Below are positions 36,437 through 38,824 of a stretch of 64,000 nucleotides of DNA, one piece after another. The DNA lies in assembly GCA_005116955.1 (NCBI GenBank), contig SWDI01000001.1, forward strand, positions 1-64,000, read 5' to 3'. The notes under the pieces were generated by a model. The model was not told where the DNA came from, did not search any database, and saw only the letters and a list, made by a program, of their open reading frames with translations. How positions within the stretch are numbered: position 1 is the stretch's first letter; every line of letters begins with the position of its first letter. Source of the stretch: Nitrospira sp. GTDB taxonomy: Bacteria; Nitrospirota; Nitrospiria; Nitrospirales; Nitrospiraceae. The translations under genes and the position numbers were made by a program.

Positions 36437-36553
36437 CATCGGACCGAGACGGGGACACGTCGGTATTGGATTCGCCCCCCAAGGGTATTGTCAAACACCT
36501 TCCTCGCCGAGAACGCCGGTGTCCTTCACATTTCCAGACTGCTAGAATGCGAC

Positions 36554-38824
36554 ATGGCTTCCGATGAGCTCTCGACCGTTCCGCGTCCAATGCAGGCACT
36601 CTATGCAGACGTTATTGTACCCCGCCATATTGCAAAGGCCTTCACCTATCTCATCCCTCCCACCTTAGCTCAGACCCTAGCAATAGGGCACCGCGTCCTC
36701 GTCCCGTTTGGACGTATGGTGCTAGAAGGGGTCGTCATCTCGCTGAGTAACCACCTTGCAACCGAGATAAAATCCACTTCCCTTAGAGAGATTCGTTCTC
36801 TCGCTCATGACGGGCAAACTTCTGCACTGTCTCCGGCGCTGTTCGAACTCTCTCGCAAGATCGCAGAGCATTACGTTGCACCCTGGGGCCAGTGTCTTCG
36901 ACTCATATTGCCCTCGCTGGCAACGCGAAAAACCTCTCCCGCGCGATACATCGTCACTCCACAGGGTTGCGCGGCGCTGGAAGCCGGCCTTTGTCCAGAC
37001 GATCTGAAGCCAATTCTGGACCGAATCGCCCGACGAACTCTAGGGGTTCTGGCCTCCACACTTCAAGCAACTCGACAGGGAAACACCGTGCGGGGGATCG
37101 ACTCCCTCATCAACAAGTCGTGGATAGCACTCATACCTTCGAGCAACGCCAACATCGAGTTCCAAAAGCCGCGCAGGACCGTCACCGTGGGCGAGGATGA
37201 TGGTCGAATGCCAGGAGATGGCATTCTGCCCACTGACACGCCTCCGAAGATCGACGCCTCCTGGAAAACGCATATCGCTCACTGCCTTCAAAGCGATCAC
37301 ATGAAAAAGCTCGTACTCCACGCCCCAGGGGAACACCGGCTCAGCCGGCTTGCCGACGCCATTCAGCAAGCCCACTCAATGAAGCGATCCACTCTAGTTC
37401 TCACCGGCGAGATCGCGAGAGCATCCTGGTTGACACAACAGCTCTCAAGACTCACTGGCCTCCAGATTACCCTCGCACACCCATCTTCACAATCCGCTCG
37501 ATGGCCACAGAACCAGGGGCAGACTCCCTCGGTAGTCGTAGGAACCCGTTCGGCCATATTTTCGCCGCTTCAATCGATCGGGCTCATCTGGGTGGAGGGA
37601 GAAGAGGACCCTTCCCTGAAAGAGCCTCAGGAGCCTCGCTATCATGCCAGAGAGGTGGCTAGCTTGAGAGCGGAGAGCGAACACGCGCTCGTTGTGCTGG
37701 CATCCGCTCATCCATCTCTTGAATCAAGGTTCGATACCGAAGCGGAGATCCATCACGTGCCACAAGAAGCGGCTCTTCAACCTACGATTGAGCTCGTTGA
37801 CCTCCGTAACGAGTCCGCAAGAACCCTCCTTAGCCATACCCTCATCCGGGCAATGCACGACGCCCTACAGAATCGTGTCAAGATCCTGCTCTTTCTTAAC
37901 AGGAAAGGGTACGCCGGGACCTTGGTATGTCGAGACTGTGGCTGGGTCCCTCGTTGCGAGTCCTGTATCGTGTCGCTGACCTATTATCGTGAAGCCGGCA
38001 GGCTGACGTGCCGCTACTGTGGTAAGGCAGATCGGTTGCCCGACCTCTGTCCTTCGTGCCGTACTCCCCATATAAGTCCTGTTGGTGGTGGCACCGAGCG
38101 TGTTGAAACCGAAGTTCGTCGTATATTCCCACAAGCCAACGTCGCCCGGCTCGATGGTGATACGCTCCGGCATTCGGCGTCCGCTCACGCTCTGCGGGAA
38201 GGTACCAGATCGGGTGTGTGGGATGTTCTTATCGGGACCCAAGCACTGTTTAGCCGAGAGCCACTACCCCGCTACGGCTTGGTGGGGATCCTTCAGGCAG
38301 ATTCCGGGTTACACGTCTCAGACTTTCGAGCGGCTGAGCGGACCTATCACCTGCTGGTTGATGCTACCAACCTAGCATGTCCGGCGTCCGCCGGAGGTCG
38401 AGTCATCGTACAGACGCACCTTCCTACACATCATGCTGTACAGGCCTTGATCTCAGGAGATCCCAATCAATTTTACAATGAAGAATTCACGGCACGCCGG
38501 CTTCTTCACTATCCTCCCATCTGTCATTTGGCTGATCTTTCGGTAACTGGGCAAGACCTAAGAACCGTCGAAGAGGCCGCCACGCGATGGGGTGCAGACC
38601 TAGAACGGAACGCACATGATCAGAAGCCGCTGATTGTTTTAGGACCCGTCCCCACAATACGCAGACCTCCCAAAGGCCGTCGGCAGTATCGCCTCTTAGT
38701 AAAGGGAACGGATCGCACCGCCCTTAGCCGCCGGATCCATAATTCCGTCCAAAATATGGAGCGAGAGTACCGAAAAGGACAGATCAAATTCCTGGTCGAC
38801 ATCGACCCGGTCGAGAATGGATAA
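36554..38824 (+). CDS. priA: PriA-family primosomal protein N' with degenerate helicase motifs
   Basis: About 756 residues. The N-terminal DNA-binding domain (YADVIVPRHIAKAFTYLIPP, GHRVLVPFGR), the zinc region with four Cys pairs (CRDCGWVPRCESC, CRYCG, CPSC; residues about 458-503) and the C-terminal domain (LLHYPPICHLADL, LGPVPTIRRPPKGRRQYRLL) are all PriA-like. The ATPase core is eroded: where motif I (GxTGSGKTE) belongs it reads HAPGEHRLSRL (near 255), motif II (DEEH) reads VEGEEDPS (near 345), and motif VI (GRAGR) reads TNLACPASAGG (near 605). It may act in replication restart without helicase activity, as described for some other bacterial lineages. Start at 36554 (MASDELSTV) is uncertain, since no strong ribosome-binding site is visible. 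Confidence 0.85.
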   Translation: MASDELSTVPRPMQALYADVIVPRHIAKAFTYLIPPTLAQTLAIGHRVLVPFGRMVLEGVVISLSNHLATEIKSTSLREIRSLAHDGQTSALSPALFELSRKIAEHYVAPWGQCLRLILPSLATRKTSPARYIVTPQGCAALEAGLCPDDLKPILDRIARRTLGVLASTLQATRQGNTVRGIDSLINKSWIALIPSSNANIEFQKPRRTVTVGEDDGRMPGDGILPTDTPPKIDASWKTHIAHCLQSDHMKKLVLHAPGEHRLSRLADAIQQAHSMKRSTLVLTGEIARASWLTQQLSRLTGLQITLAHPSSQSARWPQNQGQTPSVVVGTRSAIFSPLQSIGLIWVEGEEDPSLKEPQEPRYHAREVASLRAESEHALVVLASAHPSLESRFDTEAEIHHVPQEAALQPTIELVDLRNESARTLLSHTLIRAMHDALQNRVKILLFLNRKGYAGTLVCRDCGWVPRCESCIVSLTYYREAGRLTCRYCGKADRLPDLCPSCRTPHISPVGGGTERVETEVRRIFPQANVARLDGDTLRHSASAHALREGTRSGVWDVLIGTQALFSREPLPRYGLVGILQADSGLHVSDFRAAERTYHLLVDATNLACPASAGGRVIVQTHLPTHHAVQALISGDPNQFYNEEFTARRLLHYPPICHLADLSVTGQDLRTVEEAATRWGADLERNAHDQKPLIVLGPVPTIRRPPKGRRQYRLLVKGTDRTALSRRIHNSVQNMEREYRKGQIKFLVDIDPVENG

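Follow-up and report, generated by a model that had tools for sequence, protein, structure and literature searches.

Most bacteria conserve the ATPase activity of PriA although E. coli can live without it, which raises the question of why the activity has been retained. The closest described system to the protein considered here is PriA of D. radiodurans, which in vitro shows no ATPase or unwinding activity, binds single-stranded DNA (ssDNA) and forks near-normally, and contacts DnaB (Lopper et al. 2015, PMC4504706). The same paper reports that the K230R substitution abolishes the ATPase of E. coli PriA, and calls Deinococcus-Thermus notable exceptions, with Nitrospira unmentioned (PMC4504706). 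In E. coli PriA, cryo-EM has shown that fork binding swings the cysteine-rich region (CRR), and that the CRR, HD2, and C-terminal domain (CTD) frame a pore for lagging-strand ssDNA (PMC10175261), while docking surfaces are exposed upon fork binding (PMC10175261, PMC13377028). Here we describe a PriA orthologue from Nitrospira that, with a probability we put at roughly 80%, has turned into a pseudohelicase acting as an ATP-independent clamp that recognizes forks and brings in the machinery for DnaB loading.

The gene is an intact, full-length open reading frame of 756 codons at 36554..38824 (+) of the window, the 64,000-nucleotide stretch of Nitrospira DNA analyzed here; its start codon is uncertain because the open frame extends upstream as far as a TTG at 36488. 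The product scored 360.6 bits against the NCBIfam priA model TIGR00595 (cut-off 230.35), with residues 269-753 spanning model positions 17-509 of 509, and its PDB sequence matches were all PriA. The 3'-DNA-binding domain (residues 19-120; 36608..36913, +; PF17764, 5.6e-21), the zinc ribbon of the CRR (37928..38059, +; PF18319), and the CTD (residues 655-752; 38516..38809, +; PF18074, 2.9e-11) all exceeded curated Pfam cut-offs, in agreement with the initial annotation, which had described the two terminal domains as PriA-like and eight cysteines as intact. The latter were located at residues 459, 462, 468, 471, 486, 489, 499, and 502, and all eight occur in every one of 57 motor-dead relatives. 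By profile, domain, and predicted fold, the protein is a true PriA orthologue.

Alignment with E. coli PriA revealed that most of the motor motifs have been replaced. Motif I (Walker A), GVTGSGKTE in E. coli, reads HAPGEHRLS (residues 255-266, LHAPGEHRLSRL; 37316..37351, +); motif II (Walker B), DEEH in E. coli, reads EGEE (residues 347-354, VEGEEDPS; 37592..37615, +); motif III, GSATP in E. coli, reads ASAHP (residues 382-390, LASAHPSLE; 37697..37723, +); and motif VI, GRAGR in E. coli, reads NLACP (residues 605-615, TNLACPASAGG; 38366..38398, +), which reproduces the four replacements first noticed in the sequence. The Q-motif glutamine (E. coli Q203) is absent, and motif V is changed from KGHxFP to SREPLP. 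The earlier statement that all helicase motifs are eroded thus holds for motifs Q, I, II, III, V, and VI but not for motif Ib (GTRSAIF, residues 330-336; 37541..37561, +) or motif IV (LFLNRKGYA, within LFLNRKGYAG, residues 446-455; 37889..37918, +), both of which are intact. The second glutamate of DEEH, equivalent to E322 of E. coli, is retained, and R262 occupies the place of E. coli K230 and is invariant across a 15-member family alignment. As a control, the same alignment procedure returned intact motifs in 26 canonical Nitrospirota PriAs and 60 sampled PriAs from outside the Nitrospirales. The window PriA lacks the features of an active SF2 motor, namely Walker A GxTGSGKT, Walker B DEEH, and motif VI QxxGRxGR, and combines descent from PriA with loss of both Walker motifs, as a pseudohelicase does; these replacements suggest that its ATPase activity has been lost.

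An AlphaFold2 model of the window PriA, built from 75 sequences, had a mean pLDDT of 90.4 and matched fork-bound E. coli PriA (8fak_H) over 623 residues at 2.6 Å (Z 33.6, 27% identity), a closer fit than to structures of free PriA. When a canonical relative was modeled with the same alignment, its best fit was likewise to 8fak (2.9 Å, versus 4.0 Å for 6dcr). The pore-like conformation is therefore non-specific, and we rejected the idea that motor loss has locked the protein open. Likeness to active SF2 motors was lower for the motor-dead model than for the canonical control, with Z of 18.1 versus 27.9 for RecG (1gm5) and 21.2 versus 35.0 for Mfd (6x26), a comparison of one pair of models which hints that the scaffold has been kept while the ATPase geometry drifted.

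A second, canonical priA, considered in the initial annotation, was sought by profile search of the host genome (3.65 Mb, 99.8% complete) and none was found; the remaining TIGR00595 hits are partial matches to Mfd, UvrB, RecG, and a Cas3-like helicase. Among the priA genes of 21 genomes of the host's own genus, dN/dS (Nei-Gojobori, median of pairs) was 0.18 over the entire gene, 0.17 in HD1, 0.18 in the CRR, and 0.12 in HD2 after the CRR, the most constrained stretch, with the winged-helix/linker part the loosest domain at 0.34. The altered motifs also show partial conservation within the genus, LASAHPSLE for instance showing 97% identity to the window sequence. The motif losses recur in every PriA read of the genus and order, including that of Nitrospira moscoviensis, so their conservation across Nitrospira, which the annotation had left to be checked, holds. 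Because the losses are conserved and the gene is under purifying selection, both sequencing error and recent decay are excluded. Such constraint does not by itself establish restart as the function under selection. No PriA was picked up by a 75-relative profile in two genomes of the same genus, G102 (2.0 Mb, 99% complete) and G256 (94% complete), and these absences could be true losses or assembly gaps.

Across Nitrospirota, nearly all of 295 genomes surveyed gave a PriA profile match, a small number of these matches being to other helicases only, mostly in incomplete genomes; for motif classification, PriA sequences were read from 84 genomes. Canonical motifs were present in the members read of families f4, f5, f6, f9, f10, f13, f14, f16-f20, f22, f32, f34, and f36. 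The motifs were gone from f1, f2, and f3 of the window's order, from f8 of the same class, and from f15, f21, f23, f25-f31, f33, f35, and f38 of another class. In a scan of named genomes by family-level alignment, 20 Nitrospirales PriAs, that of N. moscoviensis among them, were all motor-dead, and motifs I and II were canonical in 60 PriAs of other groups. Two families stand midway. In one genus of f37, DEEQ is kept, GIAGSGKTE is kept in G203, and motif VI reads AEKVGTG or AERVGTG (L099, L276); in the other genus the P-loop is lost and DEEQ is kept. Family f42, which belongs to the order of the window, retains DEEH and has lost motifs I, V, and VI. Judged by the motifs they carry, f37 and f42 are intermediate stages of motor loss. 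The half-eroded PriA of the second f37 genus (G279, L105/L270) is interrupted by an in-frame TAA lying between its winged-helix region and HD1; the related pair G203/G296 has an open frame over the part compared, with a dN/dS of about 0.24.

Rapidly evolving dead PriAs might group together artefactually, so the losses were counted on RpoB rather than PriA. On a tree of 48 genomes, built by a brief search with SH-aLRT as its sole support measure and with f42 left out, the motor-dead families formed two separate clades. The first consists of the window's order and f8 (joined with a support of 89), with f7 as sister; the second (support 100) is surrounded by canonical f22, f32, f34, f36, and f39, where f7, f12, and f39 were counted as canonical by high profile scores and f39 also by one sequence read. 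The f37 pair sits outside both clades. The tree requires at least three changes of motor state, with canonical families in between, and a single ancestral loss for the whole phylum was accordingly rejected. Two irregularities were seen in the RpoB sequences themselves. The frame of one f20 genome (G010, L150) is 1730 residues long, with a large unaligned insert between profile positions 219 and 254. The host rpoB is broken in the assembly, outside the window (G000:C3:164000-182500, L152): the segment coding for residues 1-1028 is found downstream of that for residues 989-1337, tuf-like sequence stands at the ends of the break, and the apparent order is tuf start, rpoB end, rpoC, rpsL, rpsG, fusA, tuf, nusG, ribosomal proteins, rpoB start, which is probably a misassembly through two tuf copies.

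We compared residue loss at 126 alignment columns that reach at least 85% conservation among canonical relatives; 38 of these columns lie in catalytic motifs. Both clades have lost 21 of the 38 catalytic columns; outside the motifs, no column of the CRR, 3'-DNA-binding domain, or CTD was lost in both, and just 3 of the 50 motor-lobe columns were. Catalytic columns were lost far more often than others (odds ratios of 9.7 and 9.4 by clade, Fisher p ~2e-7 each, a value that serves only as a guide because alignment columns are not independent), and the pattern of loss was similar in the two clades (correlation 0.72 over the 126 columns). Besides the eight cysteines, the dead PriAs largely keep the G and R of GTR, the arginine of YHAR, NRxG, PDFRxxE, and the C-terminal GP and K, and the residues replacing the lost motifs differ between clades. 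We consider it reasonably probable that motor loss has been recurrent, with at least three losses in one phylum and living intermediates, and that, since much the same non-catalytic core survives each loss, this core defines a minimal ATP-free restart clamp.

Profile searches of the host genome did not find PriC or DnaT; the sole PriB match was sub-threshold and was the SSB gene adjoining rpsF, and the best match to the DnaC/IstB family was DnaA, leaving no DnaC-type loader found. DciA is encoded at C1:111711-111965 and occurs in 51 of 51 good genomes of the order and 121 of 127 good genomes of the other class. Being equally present beside canonical PriA, DciA leaves the motor loss unexplained, and it was rejected as its cause. 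RecG is canonical in the host genome and a UvrD-type helicase is also present; a compensatory gain of UvrD-type helicases was rejected, as 25 genomes showed no such pattern. SSB usually carries an acidic tip ending in PF that binds PriA and other partners; the host SSB beside rpsF (G000:C5:97403-97645, L286), outside the window, ends in ...HDEPGYEMGEEG without this tip.

In the mechanism we propose, the clamp would recognize the fork and serve as a loader platform without ATP, its retained CRR, HD2, and CTD forming a pore for lagging-strand ssDNA. The DnaB loading machinery would then be recruited, perhaps through DciA, the PriA-DciA contact being a guess. Duplex on the lagging strand would need other enzymes, such as RecG and the UvrD-type helicase, to clear it; alternatively, only forks with an ssDNA lagging strand would be used. 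The initial annotation's suggestion that restart may rely solely on recognizing structure and recruiting the loader would match both the D. radiodurans biochemistry and the E. coli cryo-EM mechanism.

Three other readings were weighed against the clamp. If the gene were decaying towards a pseudogene after another route had taken over restart, the in-frame stop in the P-loop-less PriA of the f37 genome G279 and the two congeneric genomes without PriA would be expected; yet dN/dS is low in every domain (0.12-0.34), all 57 motor-dead relatives are full-length with their cysteines, the protein has been maintained across the order and a second clade, and the absences number only two, which assembly gaps could explain. 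Decay is thus already largely refuted, and we regard it as extremely improbable. Scarcely better is the prospect that nucleotide is still bound and hydrolyzed at a rewired, non-canonical site. The invariant arginine in place of the Walker lysine would suit such a site, as would the acidic residues that persist at motif II (VEGEED, DQEE, and DEEH in f42), but the Q-motif, P-loop, motif V, and motif VI arginines are all gone, the replacements differ between clades, and the model's likeness to active SF2 motors, exemplified by RecG, falls below that of the canonical control.

The protein might instead have left restart for another DNA-binding or structural task, given that its defining activity is lost and that no partner proteins of the E. 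coli type were found in the genome. Against this, it is the genome's only PriA and has kept the fork-binding architecture. Mycobacteria likewise lack DnaC, DnaT, PriB, and PriC, and their PriA is nevertheless listed as essential (PMC5694481), and the Deinococcus precedent retained fork and DnaB binding (PMC4504706). We therefore consider a change of task very unlikely, and favour the ATP-independent clamp, for which fork binding, a pore, and recruitment of DnaB and DciA are what the retained parts would predict.

A full-text literature search of partial coverage found no paper on PriA in Nitrospira, and the label 'primosomal helicase PriA' is misleading for this genus. A motor-dead PriA is an already known kind; repeated loss across a phylum, with intermediates, looks new and appears unreported. 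The Nitrospirota losses, standing beside canonical relatives and families caught midway, provide a natural experiment, in which residues required to recognize forks and recruit the loader can be told apart from those serving unwinding only.

With canonical PriA (E. coli and K. pneumoniae; 8fak, 4nl4), the window PriA shares domain order, the eight cysteines, motifs Ib and IV, and the fold; unlike it, it has no P-loop, Walker B, motif V, or motif VI, and its genome lacks detectable PriB, PriC, DnaT, and DnaC-type partners. Actinobacterial PriA has also been described as a PriA without helicase motifs, and the PRK14873 models, annotated as having none detectable, are those we take to represent it; the window PriA scores 195.6 bits at best against these and 451.1 bits against the PRK05580 models, which places it outside that lineage. 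The nearest likeness is to D. radiodurans PriA, a precedent for the ATPase-less restart protein that the initial annotation had mentioned from other lineages (PMC4504706). Both are PriA orthologues that have lost Walker A and B and kept the DNA-binding parts, with arginine in place of the Walker lysine. They differ in phylum, and the Nitrospira erosion extends over motifs Q, I, II, III, V, and VI. The D. radiodurans protein has been assayed, whereas that of Nitrospira was analyzed here by sequence and predicted structure. Because the motor-dead families are nested among canonical Nitrospirota PriAs, as placed by an RpoB tree of Nitrospirota, the Nitrospirota loss most likely arose separately from that in Deinococcus.
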